Assembly (NCBI GenBank): GCA_009781915.1
Contig: WQUW01000012.1
Coordinates: 1 to 36,366 of the forward strand
Direction of reading: 5' to 3'
From: Treponema sp.
GTDB lineage: Bacteria; Spirochaetota; Spirochaetia; Treponematales; Breznakiellaceae
DNA length: 36,366 nt
Made by a program: the position numbers and the translations under genes. Shown here piece after piece: positions 2,440-35,764 of the stretch; position 1 is the first letter of the stretch; each line of letters opens with the position of its first letter. The notes beneath the pieces are model-generated. The model made no database searches. It was not told the DNA's origin and was given only the letters and a program-made list of their open reading frames with translations.

Positions 2440-2639
2440 CTGTCATCTCCCGTTGTTTTTATGATTTCATTTTCAACTTTGTCGGTTACCACTTTACCGC
2501 CCAAAAGTTTACAAACACTGTAAATTCCTTTTTTCAATCATTTCTGGTAAAATCGTTAGCAATACGTTCAAAACAATTGAAAATGATGCATCTTGCCACA
2601 TCAAATTTGAGAAATTTGAGGTAATAAGTAGTTTTTGCG

Positions 2640-2760
2640 CAGTCTGAGGCGAAGAAGACCGAGGCTCCGTAGCCGTGTTCCTTGGGCGGGATTCTTAAAC
2701 CTGACTCTCCTTCCCTGCCGGGGCTTTTGGCGGAAATACTCATCTCACGCGCGGCGGGGG
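2640..2760. repeat. Half copy of the palindromic intergenic element
   Basis: Holds only the right half of the family described at 35488: a degenerate loop (GCTCCGTAGC at 2664-2673), then the right arm with TTCTTAAACCTGACTCTC, CCCTGCCGGGGCTTTTGGCG and the terminal GCGCGGCGGGGG ending at 2760. The left arm is missing and replaced by AT-rich sequence. The loop reads in the same direction as the copies at 6977 and 25557, although the inner arm matches those at 21953 and 35488. The end abuts the stop codon of the radical SAM gene at 2762. Confidence 0.85.
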
Positions 2761-2761
2761 C

Positions 2762-4162
2762 CTAACCCAACTGCTCCCCTAGCTCCTTCCGGTCTATGCC
2801 CCAGTTTCTGCCAAAATTCTCAAGCAGCCTGTCGGAAAGAAGCATGAAATTGTCGAACACCGGCTGGCCGGGCGGAAGAAGGCGGGGAAGCATATCCGGA
2901 AAGGGATTGCGGTTCACGATAATTTCCCAAAACCGGGCAAAGTTTTTTATCCGCCCAAGCTCTGCGGCGGAAAGCGAAGCCGTTTCCATTACCTCGTAGG
3001 GCGGCTGTGGCGCATAACGCATCCCGTGGGTCTCGTTGTGCCGGGCAATAGCGGTTCCCGGAAGGCATTTAAGTATGCCTGGCTGAATCTCGAACGGGGC
3101 GCTTGGGGGCAGGCCGGGGGGAAACTCTGTCCCCGGCGGGCTTTGGCGGCGGACGGCGGACAGGGCCTGCCAGAGCCGGTCAAAGCCCGCTCCAAAGGAG
3201 GCAAGGTCTTCACCCGGCAGGCCCGCGATAAGATCAGCGTGGACTATCGCGCAGGTTTCCCGGCGCAGGAATTCCAGCGTTTCCATTTCCCCGCCGGATC
3301 CGCCCGCGCGGTTAATCAGGGCGGCGGTTTGGGGGTTAAACGTCTGGATTCCTACTTCTAGCCTAAGACTCCCGGCAGGAAAGCGGCGGAGAGGTTTGCG
3401 GAGTTCTTCGGGGAACCGGAAAGGAACCATCTCGAAGTGTACGCAAAAGGGCCGCTCTTGTTTTGCCGTCTCAAGACGCTCCAGAAAAAACTCCATGATC
3501 CTTTTTGCCCGCGCTATATTCAGGTTAAAACTCCGGTCAAGAAACTTGAATGTCCGCGCACCCCGGTCTATCAGAGTTCCCATCTGCGCCAAAAAAGGCT
3601 CCAGCGGGAATTCCCGTACCCCCTTGCCAGATAGCGGCCCCTGACAGAACTCGCACGAATAGGCGCAGCCGCGGGAAGCTTCCACGTAGACAAGCTTTTT
3701 TTTCAGGTCTTCGTCCGTGTACAGATGATACGCCGGAGCGATTGCGCCTACGTCAGACACAGCGCCGGGTTCGCAAAATATCCGGTAACAAAGCGCGCGA
3801 AAGCTCTCTTCCCCTTCGCCGCGAATCACATAATCGGCGTAACGAAAAATCTCCGCGCCGGATGGCAGCCACGAAACTTCCGGCCCGCCCAGAACGACAA
3901 TGGGTTTTTCTTCCCATTCCCGCGACAGAGATTCAAGCAGTTCCAGCGTGGCTTTGTGGTTCCAGATAGAAACCGAAAGCCCGAGGAGCCGGGGACGGGC
4001 CGCGAGGATTGGGCCGGTTTTTTCCCCAAGGGGCTGGCGAATGGCGAACTCCAAAATCTCGCAAGACGCTTGGAGCCTGCCAAGGTTCGCCTTTAAAAGC
4101 CGCAAGGCAAGGGAGGGGTGAATCCACTTGGCGTTGATGGTAGCAAGGACAATATCAGGCAT
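2762..4162 (-). CDS. B12-binding-domain radical SAM protein (DUF4080-like)
   Basis: Protein of 466 residues. The N-terminal third (about 1-130) has the cobalamin-binding Rossmann pattern (LGLSVSIWNHKATLELLESL and VVLGGPEVSW). A radical SAM core follows with Cys166, Cys170 and Cys173 in GCAYSCEFCQ, which would hold the 4Fe-4S cluster that splits S-adenosylmethionine. Residues from about 370 resemble the DUF4080 C-terminal region. The substrate is unknown; relatives are usually labelled as anaerobic methyl- or alkyl-transfer enzymes. The ATG directly follows the TAG of the upstream nucleotidase gene, so it is probably cotranscribed with glgX. Relatives I recall are longer at the C-terminus, and the stop sits 2 bp from a palindromic element, so the tail may have been trimmed by that insertion. 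Confidence 0.85.
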   Translation of the reverse strand: MPDIVLATINAKWIHPSLALRLLKANLGRLQASCEILEFAIRQPLGEKTGPILAARPRLLGLSVSIWNHKATLELLESLSREWEEKPIVVLGGPEVSWLPSGAEIFRYADYVIRGEGEESFRALCYRIFCEPGAVSDVGAIAPAYHLYTDEDLKKKLVYVEASRGCAYSCEFCQGPLSGKGVREFPLEPFLAQMGTLIDRGARTFKFLDRSFNLNIARAKRIMEFFLERLETAKQERPFCVHFEMVPFRFPEELRKPLRRFPAGSLRLEVGIQTFNPQTAALINRAGGSGGEMETLEFLRRETCAIVHADLIAGLPGEDLASFGAGFDRLWQALSAVRRQSPPGTEFPPGLPPSAPFEIQPGILKCLPGTAIARHNETHGMRYAPQPPYEVMETASLSAAELGRIKNFARFWEIIVNRNPFPDMLPRLLPPGQPVFDNFMLLSDRLLENFGRNWGIDRKELGEQLG

Positions 4163-6976: not shown

Positions 6977-7176
6977 CCCCCCGCCGCGCGTGAGGTGAGC
7001 ATTCCCGCCAAAAGCTCCGGCAGGGGAGGATGTACGGTTTAAGAAGCCATTTGCCCAGGCTCTTTAGCGTAGGAGACCGTGGCTCCGGAGCGGGTTCCCT
7101 GGGCGGGATTCTTAAAGCGTATATCCTCCCCTGCCGGAGCTTTTGACGGAACTGTTGGCTCATGCGCGGCGGGGGG
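6977..7176. repeat. Full palindromic intergenic element, reversed-loop type
   Basis: Lies between divergent glgX and aspS. The outer arms (CCGCCGCGCG near 6981; GCGCGGCGGGG ending 7176), the GCCAAAAGCTCCGGCAGGGG block and its complement, and the TTTAAGAA/TTCTTAAA inner ends are all present. The inner arms (GGATGTACGG versus GCGTATATCC) are imperfectly paired, so this copy is partly decayed. The loop has GCTCCGGAGC at 7082-7091 and reads opposite to the loops at 21953 and 35488. Confidence 0.9.
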
Positions 7177-21952: not shown

Positions 21953-22140
21953 CCCCCGCCGCGCGTGAGCATTTCCGCATAAAGCTCCGGCAGGAGAGGA
22001 GAATCAGGTTTAAGAAGCCCGCATGGGGAACCCGCTCCGGAGCCACGGTCTCCTACGCGGAGATGCCATGCAAATGGCTTCTTAAACCTGACTCTCCTCC
22101 CCTGCCGGGCATTGTACTGGTGGCTCGTGCGCAACGGGGG
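21953..22140. repeat. Full palindromic intergenic element, forward-loop type
   Basis: The left arm starts CCCCCGCCGCGCGTGAGC at 21953. The inner arms GAATCAGGTTTAAGAAG and CTTCTTAAACCTGACTC pair with one mismatch. The loop contains GCTCCGGAGC at 22034-22043 and reads as in the copy at 35488. The right outer arm has drifted (GCATTGTACTGGTGGCTCGTGCG). It lies between serS and the small gene at 22234, both on the minus strand. Confidence 0.92.
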
Positions 22141-22151
22141 CATTGGCGGGG

Positions 22152-22176
22152 GCCTTCCCGGCGGAGCCGGGAAGGC
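22152..22176. repeat. Satellite hairpin next to the palindromic element (copy 1)
   Basis: GCCTTCCCGG (22152-22161) pairs with CCGGGAAGGC (22167-22176). The same hairpin followed by TGTGCGA recurs at 35713-35737, in both cases just right of a palindromic element. A further hairpin (GGCGGCTGG 22188-22196 with CCAGCCGCC 22218-22226) follows here and may end the small gene's transcript. Confidence 0.75.
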
Positions 22177-22233
22177 TGTGCGAAGCGGGCGGCTGGTTCG
22201 CTGGCTTTTGCCAACTGCCAGCCGCCCCCGCTG

Positions 22234-22449: not shown

Positions 22450-25138
22450 CTAAGGAAGCGTTACCTGAATCGGTGTGGCGCTGTTGCTGGTGGTTCCAGT
22501 GCCGACCTGCCCGAAGCCATTGCCGCCCCATGCCCACAGCGAACCGTCCTGCCTGATGCCGGCGGTGTGTTCCCCGCCTGCGGAAATGGCTTGCCATGCC
22601 GTGCCGGCCTGTATCGCCACGGGGCTTGTCCGTGTGGTCGTAGTTCCATCTCCAAGTCTGCCCTCCCCGTTGAATCCCCACGCCCACAGTGAATCATCCC
22701 GCCTAATGCCAGCGGTATGATTATCCCAGCTTGCAGAGACGGATTCCCATTCCGTGCCAACCTGTATCGGAACAGGGCTGACCCTCTGGGTCTGTGTACC
22801 ATCGCCAAGTCTGCCGAAGCCGTTGTTCCCCCATGCCCACAGCGAGCCGTCCGCTCTGGTTGCCATGCTGTGCCAGTTGCTTGCGGATACGGACTCCCAA
22901 GTCGTAACATCTCCTATCGGCACAGGGCTGTTTCGGGCGGTTTCTGTGCCATCACCTAGCCGCCCAAACAGGTTGCTCCCCCAAGCCCAAAGCGATCCAT
23001 CTTGCCTTACGCCCAAGGTATGGCTACTGCCCGCAGATACGGATTCCCATGTTGTGCCAGCCTGTATCGGAACAGGCGCGTTTCGGGTAGCTGCGGTGCC
23101 ATCGCCAAGTCTGCCAGAACCATTGTTCCCCCATGCCCACAGCGAACCGTTGGTTCTGATTGCCATCGTGTGGGCATCGCCCGCAGACACATATCGCCAG
23201 TTCGTATCCGTGCCAACTTGAACGGGGCTGTTCCTTTGCAGTGTCGTGCCATCTCCGAGCCTACCCGAGCCGTTGTTCCCCCATGCCCACAGGGTTCCGT
23301 CCGTCCTTGTTGCCATGGTGTGGGCCGTGCCTGCGGAAACGGAGGCCCATGTGCTGATGCTCCCTATCTGAACCGGAGCGGCGCGGCCGGTCGTGGTGCC
23401 GTCCCCAAGCTGGCCGTTGGCGTTGCTTCCCCACGCCCACAACGTTCCGTCCTGCCTTACCGCCACGGTGTGGAACTCGCCTGCGGAAATGTCCTGCCAT
23501 ACCGTGCCGGGCAGTATCGCCGTGGGGGTGTTGGTGGGGATAAAGCCGTCGCCAAGCTGCCCTGCTCGTCCGTCTCCCCAAACCCATACCGTGCCGTTAG
23601 CCATAACTGCCACGGTGTGGCTTCCGCCCGCGGCGGCAAAGGCCCAGTCCGTTCCGGTTCCTATGCGTGTGGGTGTGTTGCGGTTGGTGGTTGTGCCATC
23701 GCCAAGCCGTCCCTGTCCGTTGTTTCCCCATGCCCAGATCGAGCCGTCGGTTCTGATGCCAACAGTGTGAGGGCTTATCGCGTTGCCTGCGGATACGGAT
23801 TCCCATGTCGTACCCGGCTGTATTGGGACAGGCGCGTTTCGAAGGGTAGTGGTACCGTCGCCAAGCCGCCCGCTTCCATTGCTTCCCCATGCCCATAGGG
23901 AACCATCATTCATCATTGCCACGGTATAAAAGTCACCGGCAGAAACGGAAGCCCATGTCGTCAACGTCCCTATACGTATCGGGGCATTCTCCTGGCCGAA
24001 AAGCACATTCGTGCCGTCACCAAGCTGGCCGCTACTATTACCTCCCCATGCCCACAGGGAACCATCGCTTCTTACGGCCACGGTGTGATTATCACCCGCA
24101 GAGGCCGAAAGCCATGTCTGCCCGGGCTGTATCTGCGCGGGGCTTGTGGTGTTCCCAGCGGTTACCCCCTGGCCTGTTCTGCCGTTCGCGTTGCTTCCCC
24201 ATATCCAAAGCGTGCCATCCGCCCTAATCGCCGTGGTGTGGTTTGATCCGGCGGAAACGGAAGTCCATCGCTCGTGCGCCTGTATCGCAACCGGAGCGTT
24301 TCGGGCGGTGGTGGTGCCGTCGCCAATTCTGCCGTTTGCGTTGCTCCCCCACGCCCAAAGGGTTCCGTCGGTTCTAATGCCCATGCTGTGGGTGTTGCCC
24401 GCCGAAACCGCCGCCCACACCGTGCCGGGCTGTACCTGAACCGGGGTGTTTTGGTTTACGGTATTGCCGTTGCCAAGCCTGCCCTGCCCATTGTTCCCCC
24501 ACGCCCACAGCGATCCATCCGCCGTAATAACCAGCGTGTGCGAAGTACCCGCCGCCGCGCGCCTGCCATCTATTTCCAGCCCCGCGAATACCCGTACCGT
24601 GGCCTCCCCGTAAACAGCCGGGTACCCTGCCGCCGTTGCCGTAATGGTCGCGTCCCCCACAGGCGCGCCCACAGGGACGGTAAGCACGTTGCCCGCGAAC
24701 GTTCCCGCCTCAGCCGGAGTGATGCTCCACGTAACCGTTTGGGACGCGCCCACAGGCCCCACCGCCGCGGTAAAGGTCTGCGTTTCGCCCCATAACAGTG
24801 TCATTACGGGCGGCGTTACCGTAACGGTCTGCGGCCCCCAACGGCGCGCCCGCCGGGACGGTAAGCACGTTGCCCGCAAACGTTCCCGCCCCGGCCGGGG
24901 TGATGCTCCACGTAACCGCCTGTGACGCGCCCTCCGGACCCACCGTTGCGGTGAATGTCATTTCTCCACGCTGTCCAATCGTCGCCGTACCCGGCGTTAC
25001 GGTAACGTCCACAGGCGCTACCCCTTGCGTACCGCCGCCCGCGGGGTTGTCGCAGGCGGCAAGGGATACCGCCAGCCCAAACGCCGCCAGAAGTACCGCC
25101 AGCGCTGCCGGGATGTTAAAAAATCCTCTCTTCCTCAT
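22450..25138 (-). pseudogene. RCC1-repeat lipoprotein with 14 propeller units, frameshifted in the Ig-like region
   Basis: The gene starts at ATG 25138 (AGAGG upstream). A lipoprotein signal peptide (SLAAC, Cys29) is followed by a bacterial Ig-like (Big) domain. The frame then changes near 24835-24840; the downstream frame carries a second Big domain and 14 RCC1-type units of about 50 residues with the core DGSLWAWGNNGxGRLGDGT...W.SVSAG.HT. Seven units make one RCC1 propeller, so 14 suggest two. Near-identical DNA in the two Big domains lies 181 bp apart, one base more than a multiple of three, and the first Big domain lacks its last strands. The break therefore looks like an out-of-frame recombination between repeats, or a lost base in the C5 tract. 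If the shift is real, the propeller has no export signal. The role is unknown, presumably surface binding. Confidence 0.85.
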
Positions 25139-25556: not shown

Positions 25557-25751
25557 CCCCCGCCGCGTGTGAGCCTCAGGCCTAATGCCCGGCAGGGGAG
25601 GATAAACGGTTTAAGAAGCCATTTTGCCCAGGCTCTTTAGCGTAGGAGACCGAGGCTCCGGAGCGGGTTCCCTGGGCGGCTTCTTAAACCGTTTATCCTC
25701 CCCTGCCGGAGCTTTTGGCGGGAATGCATGGCTCACGCACGGCGGCGGGGG
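25557..25751. repeat. Full palindromic intergenic element, reversed-loop type
   Basis: The inner arms 25591-25617 and 25681-25707 are perfect complements over 27 bp and contain GGATAAACGG/CCGTTTATCC, where the copy at 35488 has GAGAGTCAGG/CCTGACTCTC. Both strands thus changed together. The loop holds GCTCCGGAGC at 25665-25674 and reads opposite to that of the 35488 copy. The outer left arm is diverged (CCTCAGGCCTAATG). It lies between the divergent propeller lipoprotein genes. Confidence 0.93.
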
Positions 25752-25911: not shown

Positions 25912-28863
25912 ATGGTTTCATTGAAAAAGCGTGCGGGCAGGCTTCTTGTCTTGCCTTGTCTAATTTTGTTTTGTCTTGTTTTGTCGTCTTGTCCTGCAAG
26001 TCCTGACATACCGGTTCCCAGCGTGCGTATCGAAGCGGACGGAGCCACTGTAAACAGGGGCGGTATGCGGCCTTTGCGCGCCGCCACGCAGAACCTGGAT
26101 CATGTCGAAAACCGTGATGTTTTTGCCTGGACTGTGGCCTCGTCCGAGGCTGACCCGCCCGGTCTTGGCCTTCCCGGTCAGCAAACTTTTGTCAACGCCG
26201 AAGGGCATCTGCACGTGTGGCGGGGCGATAGCCGAAGCTACCTTGACGTGCAGGCTACCATGCTGTTCGGCCCCCAGATAGCAAGCGAACCCTTTAGGGT
26301 AACCTTAAGCGATCCCAAGGCGGCGGTAGAGGCGATAACGTTTACCCTTGACCCGCCTTCAGTCCACCGGGGCGGCTTTGTTGGAATACAGGCCCAAGTC
26401 CACTGGGGGGATGGGCCGGACGGAGATGCCGGCGGCATTCCGCCAACGAATGGGGCCACGGGCATTGTGTTTACCCTTCTTAGCGGACACGAGGAGAACG
26501 AGATTATCCTCCCCGGCGGCGGCCTTGACGCGGATCACAACACCGGAATGACCCTTCATGTCTTCCGCGACCAGATGCCGGGCCTTGGCGCAGGCGCTAA
26601 CGGGCAGGGCATTGTTGTCCGGGCTGCGTCGATCTACGACAACTTTTACATTGACATCCCCATACCCGTTCTACAGCCTGTTGTAACAGGAATAACCGTA
26701 ACGCCGCCCGTTTTCCGGGAAGGAGCTAACGGCGAGCGGGAGACCGGCGTGTTTCGCGGGGAAGAAAACACCTTTAGCGCTGAAGTGCATGGACTCGGGT
26801 ATCCCTTTCAGCAGGTCGAGTGGGAAATTGTAACAGGCGCGGGCCACCCGAATTTTGACGAAGGCTCCAGTATTGACAGCTCCGGCACGCTTGTGCTAAA
26901 CGAGCATTGCCCATCCTTCCGGTCCGGGCTGCCGGTTACGGTGCGGGCGACGTCGAACTTTGTTTTTAACGATGGGGATACCCAAAGCGCCACCGCCGCC
27001 GTTACCATTCTGGAGCCGGTAATTACGGGCATCCAGATAGAAGGCGGCGACACGACCATGCAGAGGGACACTACCCGCAGGTTCCAGGCCTCCATTACAA
27101 GCCGGGGAAACCCCGCGAACTTTGTTATTGAATGGGAAACGAGGGGAACCAGTACCGACCAGACCGAAGTTACCCGCATGGGCTTTGGTCACACCGGAGA
27201 CCTCTTTTTGCCGCCCAACGAGGAAGCGCCCAGTTTCACCCTGCGCGCGTATGTGCGGGGTAACTCCGGTATAGCGCACGCTATTACTGTTTTCGCTCCC
27301 GATGTGGAAAACATTGTCCCCGGCGACTGGCGGGCGGTGGCTATTGGCGTTGACCATATGTTAGCCCTGAGCTGGAACAACACCATGTACAGCTGGGGAA
27401 GAAACCAGTGGGGCAGGCTTGGCGACAGCGCCATCATCCCGCAAGGAGGCATGGACCGTAACGTTAGATGGCCCACAGCGATACCCAATCACCATAACCT
27501 GTGGAGGGAAATAAGCGGGGGGAGCCACCACAGCATAGGAATACGGCAGGACGGAACGCTGTGGGCATGGGGAAGCAACCAGCATGGTCAGCTTGGTGTC
27601 CGGCCCGGCACGATGGATAACAGCGTGCCAACAATAACGAACATCACCGGCGGCCCACAAGTACAGTCCGCTCCCATGCCCGTAGCGGCGGCCCGCAGGT
27701 TTACCTGGATGAGCATTTCGGCGGGCATGGAGCATAACGTGGGCATAAAGGTGGACGGTACGCTGTACTCGTTTGGCCGCAATAATTTCATGCAGTTAGG
27801 CCGCGAGCTTGCTCCCTATGACAGCGAAATTCTGGGTACGCCCGGAGAAATCCGCCCCCATTGGGCTCCGGGCAGGATAACGATAGAAGGCGTCCCCGAT
27901 ACCGGCTGGCGGATGGCCGCCGCCGGCGGAGCGCACGGCGCCGCTATCAGGTGGGACGGAAGGCTGTATACGTGGGGAAGGAACAATCATGGACAGGTTG
28001 GGCTTGGCGGTACTGTCGGTACAAATCAGGAGTTGCCGGTACAGGTAGTGCATCCGGGGGGCCTAGAATGGGTATATGTTGCGGCGAACGATCTTTCGAC
28101 CCTTGCTATCGACCGGGCTGGCATTGTGTGGACGTGGGGCAATAATGCCAGTGGCGCCCTTGGGCGTATGAAAAACCTGTTTGGCATGCCGCTTGATAAT
28201 CCAGAGCATCTTACTAATGGCAACATTCCCGTTCCCGAACCCGGCCCAATGAATCATCCTGTGCTGGGCCGTGTGTGGCGTTCCATCGTTACCTCAAGCG
28301 GTTCCCAGCACGCCGCCGCCATAGACGACTTGGGCCACCTGTATACATGGGGCCGCAACCACGTGGGCCAATTGGGATGGGGCATGGCGTACCGTAGGTT
28401 TGACACGAGTCCGGCTCCCAATACTGTTAGAGAAGACGGCACTTTTACTATTACGGTACTGCCGGGCAGCTCGGCTGTTGGGGGATTTCTTACCCCTGAA
28501 GACCGCGAGATGCTTGCGACACCCCGCCAGCCAATGCCCGATGTCCGGTTTATGACTGCTCTGGCCGGACGCTGGTTTACTATGGCTATTACCGAAGGCG
28601 GCGAACTGTGGGGATGGGGTGACAACCGGTGGGGACAGATTGGCAACGGACAGAGCTTTGGCAACCCCAACGGAAATACCCCCGGCAACGCTCCCAACCA
28701 CGGCCCATTCCCCCCCATTGGCCCAGGATCGGTGGAGTTGGGGCTGCCCCCTGTGCCTGCCCGTCCATCCGGAATCGGTACTTCTGGCGGAAGCGCCAGT
28801 CAATCCCAGCTTGAAGCGAACAACCGGGGAGTGTTTTACCCCGTGCAAATATTCAGACCGTAA
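25912..28863 (+). CDS. Ig-like plus RCC1-propeller lipoprotein, 983 residues
   Basis: AAGGAGAG precedes ATG 25912. The signal peptide ends in a lipobox with Cys27 (VLSSC). Residues about 30-460 hold four Ig-like/Big-type units, beginning near SVRIEADGATVNRGG, AITFTLDPPSVHRGG, GITVTPPVFREG and GIQIEGGDTTMQRD. From about 465 come seven RCC1 units with cores such as GTLWAWGSNQHGQLG, GRLYTWGRNNHGQVG and GHLYTWGRNHVGQLG, enough for one seven-bladed propeller. The C-terminus is Pro/Gly/Asn-rich. It should be a lipid-anchored, surface or periplasmic binding protein; the ligand is unknown. It pairs with the paralogue at 28873, 9 bp downstream, and lies divergent from the 14-unit gene. The eukaryotic RCC1 role in Ran exchange does not transfer. 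Confidence 0.85.
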   Translation: MVSLKKRAGRLLVLPCLILFCLVLSSCPASPDIPVPSVRIEADGATVNRGGMRPLRAATQNLDHVENRDVFAWTVASSEADPPGLGLPGQQTFVNAEGHLHVWRGDSRSYLDVQATMLFGPQIASEPFRVTLSDPKAAVEAITFTLDPPSVHRGGFVGIQAQVHWGDGPDGDAGGIPPTNGATGIVFTLLSGHEENEIILPGGGLDADHNTGMTLHVFRDQMPGLGAGANGQGIVVRAASIYDNFYIDIPIPVLQPVVTGITVTPPVFREGANGERETGVFRGEENTFSAEVHGLGYPFQQVEWEIVTGAGHPNFDEGSSIDSSGTLVLNEHCPSFRSGLPVTVRATSNFVFNDGDTQSATAAVTILEPVITGIQIEGGDTTMQRDTTRRFQASITSRGNPANFVIEWETRGTSTDQTEVTRMGFGHTGDLFLPPNEEAPSFTLRAYVRGNSGIAHAITVFAPDVENIVPGDWRAVAIGVDHMLALSWNNTMYSWGRNQWGRLGDSAIIPQGGMDRNVRWPTAIPNHHNLWREISGGSHHSIGIRQDGTLWAWGSNQHGQLGVRPGTMDNSVPTITNITGGPQVQSAPMPVAAARRFTWMSISAGMEHNVGIKVDGTLYSFGRNNFMQLGRELAPYDSEILGTPGEIRPHWAPGRITIEGVPDTGWRMAAAGGAHGAAIRWDGRLYTWGRNNHGQVGLGGTVGTNQELPVQVVHPGGLEWVYVAANDLSTLAIDRAGIVWTWGNNASGALGRMKNLFGMPLDNPEHLTNGNIPVPEPGPMNHPVLGRVWRSIVTSSGSQHAAAIDDLGHLYTWGRNHVGQLGWGMAYRRFDTSPAPNTVREDGTFTITVLPGSSAVGGFLTPEDREMLATPRQPMPDVRFMTALAGRWFTMAITEGGELWGWGDNRWGQIGNGQSFGNPNGNTPGNAPNHGPFPPIGPGSVELGLPPVPARPSGIGTSGGSASQSQLEANNRGVFYPVQIFRP

Positions 28864-28872
28864 GGAGCGCGT

Positions 28873-31434
28873 ATGAAGAAGCGTATTGCTATAGCAGCAA
28901 CTGTTGCCCTGTGCCTCGCCCTTTTCGCGGCGTGCCCGAACAGGATTACCTTTCCTCCGCCCCAGATAGAAATCTTTATTGACGGGCCGGCGGATCATGT
29001 TACCCGCGGCGGTTCTTTGCCGCTGCGCGCCCAAGTGCGCAATCTAGAGGGCGTGTTTAAAACGAACACGATAGAGTGGATGATTGTGGAACACGAACGG
29101 GACGACGCCATTAACGGGGTGGCCGAGCGGGAAACGTTCATCGAACATACCCCAGGCTACCACACCTCGCGTCTTGTGGTAGACCGCTACGAATCCCCCG
29201 CCTATTCCACCTTTACTGTCCGGGCGCGGCTGGCTGAACTGCCGGGCCTGTACGGCACGGTGTCGGTTGTTGTCAGTGACCCCGTCTCTGTTGTGAGCGC
29301 TATCCAGATTACCAGCCACACCCCCAGCGTTCACCGCAACGCCACCACCGGCCCGCTTACCGCCCGCATTGATTGGGAAAACGACCTTCCGCCCCTGCGG
29401 GGAGACAGTGGCGTGTTCTTTAGAATCGCCAGTGGCGGCTCGCCGGGCACAATCGCTTCTCCGGTTCCCGGAGAGGAACTTCAGGGTTCCATCCTTGTGG
29501 GCCCGAATCAGGAGTGGGGGAGCGACGTTCTTACGGTTCAGGCGGTGTCCCATTACGACAATAGCAAGGTTTCGCCTGCCTTCCCCATTAACGTTTTAAC
29601 GCCCGTGGTGCAGGCGATAACCATAATCCCGGCGGCCCGTGTCATTGAAGACGGGGGCTTATTCCGGGACGAGTATAACCTGTTTACCGCCGAGGTTACG
29701 GGCCTTGGCAACCCCCCTAACGACATTGTGTGGTCTGCCTCCACGCTGGCGGAGGTTGAATTTAACCCCGATGTTCCCGGCGAGCTTGCCATTGGAGCCA
29801 ACGCCCCAACCAGCGTTGCTGTCGCGGTAACGGCAGCCGCCGCCCCGCAGTTCGGCTCGGCATACGCAACGAGTTCCTTTCCTATTCTGCATCCCGTGAT
29901 AACCGAGGTGGTGATATCCGGGCCCGACAGGGTAGAGCGGGGACAGACGGAAACCTTTACCGCCGTAGCCAATGGCCGGGGCAACCCCAGCGCCGCCGAC
30001 ATGGCTCATATATACTGGTCGATCCCGACTCCGGGCACAAACCACCAAACCAGAGTTACCCCCGGCTGGGGCGGCGCGGGCGGCACGCTTACCGTGTCGG
30101 CGAATGAGTTTTTGGGCAAAATCCGTGTGCGGGCAACCAGCGGCGTAAGCCCCAAGACGCTGGCTAACCACTATGTTGATATTGACGGGGCCATTTCCAC
30201 TGACGGCTGGCGGGCGGTCAGCGTGGGCGAATACCATGTCTTGGCCCTTACCGCCGACCACCGGCTCTTTAGCTGGGGCAGGCGCACCGGGGGCATCTTG
30301 GGCCAAGGTCAGGCGGCGGGGGCAGACCTTACCAGCCCTCAGCGAATCGCAACCCCCGCTCACAACTGGCGGATGGTCAGCGCGGGCTCCAGCCACAATA
30401 TCGCCATAACGGACGATAACCGCCTGTTCGGCTGGGGCAGCAACAGCGAAGGCCAGCTCGGACGCCCGCCCACATCGGCGGCTGAAGCCATACCCGGCAA
30501 CATTGTAGGGGCGGTTGGCCACTTCTGGATAAACGCGGACGCGGGCCCCCGGCACACGGTGGGCGTAAAGGAGATGGGCACGCTGTACACCTTCGGGGCC
30601 AACGAGGCCACGCTGATAGGCCGGCAGCACGTTAACCAAGAGGGAGCGGGCCTTGACGGCGAAGACCGCCCCCACTGGCAGCCGGGCAGGGTGCAGGTGC
30701 TTGGCCTTCCCGACTACGGCTGGAGAATCGCCAGCGCGGGCACAGACCACTCGGCGGCTATCCGTGTAGACGGCAGCCTGTGGGTATGGGGCCGCAACGA
30801 GTGGGGCCAGCTTGGCCTTGGCCGGGGCAACTCAGGTCTTTCGACCCGTCCGGTACGGATACACCACCCGCAGGCCGCCAGAGGCACCCGCTGGGAGTCG
30901 GTAAACGCCGGCGACCGGTTTACGATTGCCATAGACAGCGCGGGCCAATTGTGGGTGTGGGGCCGCAACGAACTGGGCCAGCTTGGGCAGAGCAGCCCCC
31001 TGCACGAGGAAGCGCCAGTAACACCGTATCAGGGACAGGGCGCTGGAAACCGCTGGAATTACATAAACAGCATGACAAACCACTCTGTCGTTATGAGCCG
31101 CGAAGGCCGCCTGTTTGTGTTTGGCAGTAACGCCCTTGGCCAGTTTGGCAATGGGTTTGCCGTTGCCGACCACGTACCGGGGATCATGATGGTGTCCGTA
31201 ATGGAAGACCGCAGTTTCCTGTTCGCCAATGTCGGAGGCCGCTCCAGCATGGCGGTTGACGCTAGCGGTATGCTGTATGCGTGGGGGGACAACGAGTTCC
31301 ACCAGCTCGGTCTTGGCACAAGACGCATGGGCAAAGATGCCCTGCCACCCAGTCTTAACCTGCCCGAAGAAGTCAACGTAGACCGCTACTTTGAACCTAC
31401 GCCCCAGCAGGTGGGGCTGCCGCCGGCTAACTAG
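28873..31434 (+). CDS. Ig-like plus RCC1-propeller lipoprotein, 853 residues (paralogue)
   Basis: AAGGAG lies 6 bases before ATG 28873, which follows the upstream stop by 9 bp, so the two are cotranscribed. The lipobox is LFAAC (Cys21). The same plan as the neighbour is visible: four Ig-like units (IEIFIDGPADHVTRGG, AIQITSHTPSVHRN, AITIIPAARVIEDGG, EVVISGPDRVERGQ) and then seven RCC1 units (for example GSLWVWGRNEWGQLG, GQLWVWGRNELGQLG, GMLYAWGDNEFHQLG). Unit-by-unit similarity to the upstream protein points to duplication of the whole gene followed by divergence. A clear terminator follows at 31447. The ligand and partner are unknown. Confidence 0.85.
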   Translation: MKKRIAIAATVALCLALFAACPNRITFPPPQIEIFIDGPADHVTRGGSLPLRAQVRNLEGVFKTNTIEWMIVEHERDDAINGVAERETFIEHTPGYHTSRLVVDRYESPAYSTFTVRARLAELPGLYGTVSVVVSDPVSVVSAIQITSHTPSVHRNATTGPLTARIDWENDLPPLRGDSGVFFRIASGGSPGTIASPVPGEELQGSILVGPNQEWGSDVLTVQAVSHYDNSKVSPAFPINVLTPVVQAITIIPAARVIEDGGLFRDEYNLFTAEVTGLGNPPNDIVWSASTLAEVEFNPDVPGELAIGANAPTSVAVAVTAAAAPQFGSAYATSSFPILHPVITEVVISGPDRVERGQTETFTAVANGRGNPSAADMAHIYWSIPTPGTNHQTRVTPGWGGAGGTLTVSANEFLGKIRVRATSGVSPKTLANHYVDIDGAISTDGWRAVSVGEYHVLALTADHRLFSWGRRTGGILGQGQAAGADLTSPQRIATPAHNWRMVSAGSSHNIAITDDNRLFGWGSNSEGQLGRPPTSAAEAIPGNIVGAVGHFWINADAGPRHTVGVKEMGTLYTFGANEATLIGRQHVNQEGAGLDGEDRPHWQPGRVQVLGLPDYGWRIASAGTDHSAAIRVDGSLWVWGRNEWGQLGLGRGNSGLSTRPVRIHHPQAARGTRWESVNAGDRFTIAIDSAGQLWVWGRNELGQLGQSSPLHEEAPVTPYQGQGAGNRWNYINSMTNHSVVMSREGRLFVFGSNALGQFGNGFAVADHVPGIMMVSVMEDRSFLFANVGGRSSMAVDASGMLYAWGDNEFHQLGLGTRRMGKDALPPSLNLPEEVNVDRYFEPTPQQVGLPPAN

Positions 31435-35482: not shown

Positions 35483-35487
35483 AAATT

Positions 35488-35677
35488 CCCCCGCCGCGCA
35501 TGAGCATTTCCGCCAAAAGCCCCGGCAGGGGAGGAGAGTCAGGTTTAAGAATCCCGCATGGGGAACCCGCTCCGGAGCCACGGTCTCCTACGCGGAGAGG
35601 CCATGCAAATGGCTTCTTAAACCTGACTCTCCTCCCCTGCCGGGGCTTTTGGCGGAAATGCTCATGCGCGGCGGGGG
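35488..35677. repeat. Palindromic intergenic element, best-preserved copy (64-bp perfect arms)
   Basis: The left arm 35488-35551 and right arm 35614-35677 are exact reverse complements over all 64 bases; the loop is 62 bp (35552-35613). Order in the left arm: CCCCCGCCGCGCATGAGC end, CATTTCCGCCAAAAGCCCCGG, CAGGGGAGGA, GAGTCAGGTTTAAGAA. The loop contains GCTCCGGAGC (35569-35578) and GGTCTCCTACGC, conserved in every copy. No transposase or ribosome site is inside; translated forms are chance. As RNA it would make a 64-bp duplex; as DNA, a cruciform. It resembles a MITE or REPIN by layout, but I know no named family that fits. Confidence 0.97.
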
Positions 35678-35712
35678 CATTGCTGGGGGGCTCCGCAGAG
35701 CATTAGCCCCCG

Positions 35713-35737
35713 GCCTTCCCGGCGGAACCGGGAAGGC
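35713..35737. repeat. Satellite hairpin next to the palindromic element (copy 2)
   Basis: GCCTTCCCGG (35713-35722) pairs with CCGGGAAGGC (35728-35737); TGTGCGA follows, as at 22152. Here it lies between the element and the 3' end of the leucine-rich-repeat gene. Confidence 0.75.
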
Positions 35738-35764
35738 TGTGCGAGGCGGGGCGGGGTTAGGGGC

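Follow-up and report, generated by a model that had tools for sequence, protein, structure and literature searches.

The 36,366-nucleotide stretch of Treponema sp. DNA analysed here (the window; contig WQUW01000012.1 of assembly GCA_009781915.1) contains several copies of a palindromic element of about 190 bp. One full copy lies at 25557–25750 with its core on the + strand. Its inner hairpin (25591–25707, +) consists of a 30-bp stem carrying the GATAAACGG type on both arms and a structured core of about 57 nt with internal loops (25621–25677, +), the portion that is conserved across genera, and a covariance model match of 128.9 bits has exactly the coordinates of this hairpin. The core of a second full copy (35484–35681) is read on the − strand; its inner hairpin (35524–35641, −) shows the AGAGTCA type on both arms, and its arms match each other over 71 nt, outer modules included. 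A third full copy, also of AGAGTCA type, is located at 21953–22144 (−, inner hairpin 21989–22106) and bears two one-sided changes, and a fourth at 6977–7172 (+, inner hairpin 7019–7135) between divergent isoamylase-like (glgX-like) and aspS-like genes. The right half of an element of AGAGTCA type is present at 2632–2763 (+), cut inside the core and beside a Mutator-type transposase remnant.

According to the first-pass annotation, both arms had changed together between the 25557 copy and the one it placed at 35488, with pairing kept over 27 bp. The inner-arm sequences do differ, reading GGATAAACGG (25600–25609) and CCGTTTATCC (25689–25698) in the former and GAGAGTCAGG (35534–35543) and CCTGACTCTC (35622–35631) in the latter, and pairing is kept, with no mismatch at 25591 and one at 35524 over 30 positions. 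The length given was too short, since the stem is free of mismatches over 32 bp at 25589–25709 and the 71-nt arms at 35484–35681 are 97% complementary. The 6977 copy is partly unpaired, as had been noticed, with 3 mismatches in 30 positions; the copy at 21953 has 2 in 30. As the two arm types differ by a 6- versus 7-nt block (ATATAC/AGAGTCA) that is swapped on both arms, the difference represents a block replacement and not ten single compensations.

To the genome of the window (G000; 2.82 Mb in 180 contigs, 97% complete) we could assign about 190 copies of the element, with 374 matches of an arm motif (189 and 185) and 203 of a core motif (93 and 110). Using nhmmer on the fetched loci, 243 matches were reduced to 199 unique ones, 144 of them spanning both inner arms and 140 being usable. 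GGATATACGG is their commonest inner arm. No other copy of the 140 shares the type at 25591, and AGAGTCA arms occur on both sides of five copies, one of these with an extra change on one arm, and on one side only in the hybrid copy L041. Five further copies (L153, L025, L157, L156 and the second copy of L078) carry clearly different arms which pair fully or nearly so around almost the same core.

The arms covary strongly. After exclusion of three copies with very different arms and six with the AGAGTCA type, the remaining 131 main-type copies showed 37 two-sided and 71 one-sided changes, and shuffling the right arms among copies gave 3.5 ± 1.7 matched changes with a maximum of 11 in 5000 trials. 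In an alignment of 51 non-redundant copies a two-sided change was found at 22 of 41 pairs, and none of 500 shuffles reached any of five measures; 97.1% of the cells were paired, compared to 91.2% after shuffling and 36–54% when the partner was slid by 1–3 columns. The core stem covaries too, one pair occurring as C-G, U-A and U-G and the next one as A-U, G-C and G-U. Thus, covariation as in a structured RNA exceeds both the shuffled and the slid controls.

A search by DNA similarity matched only 3 of 117 genomes, namely G000 itself and, with two short matches, G005 and G046. The latter two were taken as chance, as they lack other element motifs apart from single short strings. A covariance model built from the G000 copies alone detected two copies in G009, a member of another genus (E 8e-8 per genome). 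One of these, used as a BLAST query, gave 12 matches in G009, and 9 copies there were readable, with arms of their own and a shared core. A model from 8 of the G009 copies alone then matched 30 of 145 family genomes and 18 of 56 genera, including 13 matches in G002 from the window's own genus and at least 22 in G041, an assembly of one contig with 4,059,867 bases. The matches of this model in fetched G000 loci agree with the search from G000 to G009. The family carrying the element would be the Breznakiellaceae. The structure search reached these 30 genomes; DNA similarity missed the element family outside the species. A 19-nt core pattern was also present in four genome contigs bearing names of unrelated bacteria.

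Covariation, for which the first-pass annotation had suggested a test, was evident in these relatives too. In the G009 copies 19 of 34 pairs changed on both sides, with 0 of 500 shuffles as high. Among 50 model-aligned matches this holds for 28 of 34 pairs, and the 97.1% of paired cells (69.7% after shuffling) lean towards the structure because the alignment was fitted to it. All 18 arm pairs show a two-sided change somewhere among these matches, many with the four standard pair types.

Each copy forms a long hairpin in which arms of about 20–70 bp enclose a core with conserved internal loops. On the core strand the consensus runs from a variable arm through UCUCUGGAAUUC, CCGCC, GNAG and GGAGACC to a variable apical part, and from there through GGGCUCC, GNAG, GGCGG and ACUCUACAGG to the other variable arm. 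In a plain arm-to-arm alignment of 54 copies from 13 genomes, which is independent of any fit to the structure model, the arms were 90% complementary within a copy, 39% identical between copies and 49% alike between copies of one genome, and 52 distinct left 20-mers were found in the 54 copies. The arm sequence is nearly free. Within G041 the pairwise identity is 0.86 and 0.80 for the core segments and 0.55 and 0.53 for the arms; the idea that the arms outpace the outer flanks in evolution was not borne out in this genome, as the flanks had diverged even more. The core is conserved across genera. This distribution bears on the possibility of an ordinary miniature inverted-repeat transposable element (MITE). 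Such a non-autonomous DNA transposon would have long inverted repeats at its ends, be moved as duplex and owe its complementarity to these ends only. Dispersal, a length of about 190 bp, inverted arms, intergenic position and high copy number in one genome would all suit such an element, but its ends should be conserved, whereas here it is the interior that is conserved while the arms vary. In addition, no excess of target duplications was seen in 117 copies (best value 2.3 copies above chance, with uncertain boundaries). We consider a MITE improbable.

An even less probable explanation is an artefact, either two unrelated palindromes or a product of short-read assembly of repeats. Many G000 copies do sit at contig ends, and draft genomes may contain chimeric repeats, but the same pattern is found in the single-contig genome G041. 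That two unrelated palindromes were inserted independently is refuted, since the copies share core and outer arms and hybrids exist.

Two such hybrids, which the first-pass annotation had suggested looking for, were identified. In L041 (C32:19956-20152) the left arm reads ATATACGG while the right arm is of AGAGTCA type, and L109 carries on one arm a haplotype of three changes that L207 has on both. Moreover, 5 of 18 same-class pairs of outer modules in G000 are identical (0.57 expected), among them, with a common haplotype, the 35484 copy of the window. In two of the five, L033 and L034, the outer-arm haplotype is confined, among 238 arms, to the pair belonging to that copy. Changes tend to be matched or unmatched in an all-or-none manner within copies (172 of 274 pairs concordant, null 136, p 0.0004; 43 of 54 without the three most divergent copies, null 29, p 0.0004), and a 1-nt deletion as well as many transversions are among the matched ones. 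The arms are thus sometimes copied from each other, and the private whole-arm haplotypes exclude stepwise compensation as the sole cause for some of the copies. A suitable process is template switching in quasipalindromes, which is an established mechanism in E. coli (PMC7202029), has been suggested as one for RNA stems (PMC8794818) and likewise accounts for whole-arm identity and for multi-base changes on two sides.

It is possible, though in our view somewhat doubtful, that this copying alone keeps the arms alike, with pairing as a by-product and no selected fold. The identical outer pairs, the private haplotypes and the all-or-none changes would all follow from it. However, as far as these reports describe it, it is a mutation process and not an element, and it predicts neither an excess of G-T mismatches on one strand nor covarying core stems with near-invariant internal loops. 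Whole-arm copying is also not routine, as 99 of the 119 G000 copies with both outer stems have unlike outer modules. These always stand in the order B left and A right relative to the core, so that the core has not been inverted. Because of these 99 copies, birth of every copy by snap-back as a perfect palindrome was rejected. Of the two causes named in the first-pass annotation, a selected fold and the transfer of one arm's sequence to its partner, each finds support and neither explains everything by itself.

A fold of one strand is indicated by the mismatches. G-T is favoured over A-C on the core strand, with 86 versus 29 cases in the plain arm alignment (p 1e-7) and 57 versus 28 if each combination of genome, position and pair is counted once (p 0.002). 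One-sided transitions in the G000 inner arms gave 29 G-T and 11 A-C (p 0.006), and by arm-only energies the core strand was the favoured one in 36 copies, compared to 18 for the opposite strand. Since copies lie on both strands and neighbouring genes are randomly oriented, one would not expect such an excess from a general bias of replication or transcription; it rather suggests that the core strand of the element itself folds, as RNA or as single-stranded DNA (ssDNA). This excess supports selection of a single folded strand, as do family arms that differ almost copy by copy yet still pair.

All 20 loci inspected in G041 are intergenic by mechanically called open reading frames (ORFs), and their neighbouring genes are codirectional in 10, divergent in 5 and convergent in 5 cases, as expected for random orientation. 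In G000 12 of 45 copies lie under a long mechanical ORF, a count we set aside because such ORFs can cross palindromes by chance. The structured core with its conserved internal loops might suggest a cis-regulatory RNA (riboswitch, leader or terminator) of adjacent genes, but with this random orientation, about 190 copies in one genome and no match in Rfam such a role appears very improbable. In Rfam release 15 no element scored above the gathering threshold and only hairpin matches below it were obtained. Likewise, no match resulted for the G000 element in phage, plasmid and viral collections, for the core motif in viral contigs or for a G041 copy in plasmids.

We regard the palindromes as probably a REPIN-like dispersed, intergenic structured repeat of one bacterial family that is recognised in single-stranded form through its core. 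REPINs of Pseudomonas fluorescens SBW25 (PMC3116915) are likewise dispersed extragenic hairpins in inverted doublets. Inverted doublets forming extragenic hairpins were found here as well: all 17 close opposite-strand pairs were in −+ order (5 in G000, 8 in G041, 3 in G009 and 1 in G049), and many copies are single. REPINs are described there with invariant 16-bp ends around a variable spacer and with a RAYT transposase, whereas in our element the arms vary and the core is conserved. The GTAG/CGTC REPs and the TIRYT-flanking families of terminal inverted repeats, as far as they are described in PMC3733652, are also palindromic with stem variants and dimers, some without a dedicated transposase, but they measure 20–40 bp, and no tyrosine transposase was found in G000. 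Termite-flg and Termite-leu (RF01729/RF01730), both listed by accession in PMC2864571, are also structured RNA candidates from termite hindgut DNA; they differ from our element in that Rfam release 15 gave no such match for it.

For a mechanism, the core strand may fold in single-stranded form, more likely as RNA than as ssDNA. Recognition would take place via the internal loops of the core, with arms that need only pair. Two-sided changes would arise from ordinary compensation and from the copying of one arm from its partner, in some copies, by template switching in the hairpin, and we infer that the element spreads as a non-autonomous repeat with no function for the host.

Several points weigh against this interpretation. 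No mover was found; RAYT (Y1_Tnp, PF01797) gave no match in G000 in a search in which 5 of 14 controls were matched, and target duplications showed no excess. The G000 outer stems covary weakly (22 matched and 144 one-sided changes, 13.5 expected) and show 74 G-T to 53 A-C, the difference from the 29:11 of the inner arms not being significant (p 0.14). Counted as distinct variants, the inner arms give only 15:9. The bias is not uniform, being reversed in G049 (1:5) and G022 (2:5), and ssDNA would be expected to produce it also. Most genomes searched were draft assemblies, and under strict filters the whole-genome search with the G009 model found no copy in G000; on 8 sources of G000 sequence the same model gave 7 matches in 5 of them (E 4e-7 to 0.08).

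A more far-reaching version, which we think rather unlikely, is that the family-wide structured RNA is itself the mobile unit, either a bacterial element resembling short interspersed elements (SINEs) or a guide or substrate RNA of a mobile system. The core would then be recognised, the arms would be free stems, and they might change fast and in step because an arm is rewritten from its partner when the hairpin is replicated.

Covariation of the arms is in itself nothing new, since compensatory changes on either side of the hairpin are already called common for REPINs in PMC3116915. A conserved core with near-free arms across a bacterial family was not found in the literature, of which our coverage was partial, and this hairpin family of termite-gut spirochaetes and their relatives is apparently uncatalogued. 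A curious pair of palindromes has become a testable repeat family, and its kept core and near-free arms in many copies per genome form a natural experiment on whether stems stay paired by selection, template switching or both.

Some rearranged copies were also observed. In the window a Mutator-family (IS256-like) transposase in two frames (PF00872) at 1622–2680 is followed by sequence ending in ...AGTTTTTGCGCAGTCTG inside an element core, and has apparently been inserted into a palindromic element. At L142 (G000:C39:10739-11639, about 374–695) the core is split by a short insert with the ends CAGACTGCGCAAAAACT and AGTTTTTGCACAGACT, which resemble the end beside the Mutator-type transposase, and both arms of this copy carry GATAAACGTTTT. 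Four full copies (L023:518, L007:1502, L080:2883 and L054:1398) are fused to a second half-element with the same core start, GGAGACC, and this repeated junction suggests template switching or an old dimer. Core-less solo outer halves (GCCGGGGCTTTTGGCGGGAATG...GCGCGGCGGGG) exist as independent short repeats at L135, L163, L140, L178, L094 and others. A separate short hairpin, GGCCTTCCCGGCGGA(A/G)CCGGGAAGGC, recurs beside several element copies and is found in the window at 22151–22189 and 35712–35750. The 25557 copy is surrounded by three large RCC1-repeat proteins (PF00415) encoded at 22450–24879 (−), 25912–28863 (+) and 28873–31434 (+), one of them with a Big_2 domain, and a flavin mononucleotide (FMN) riboswitch (RF00050, 81.8 bits) occupies positions 1–110 (−), where it is cut by the start of the window.
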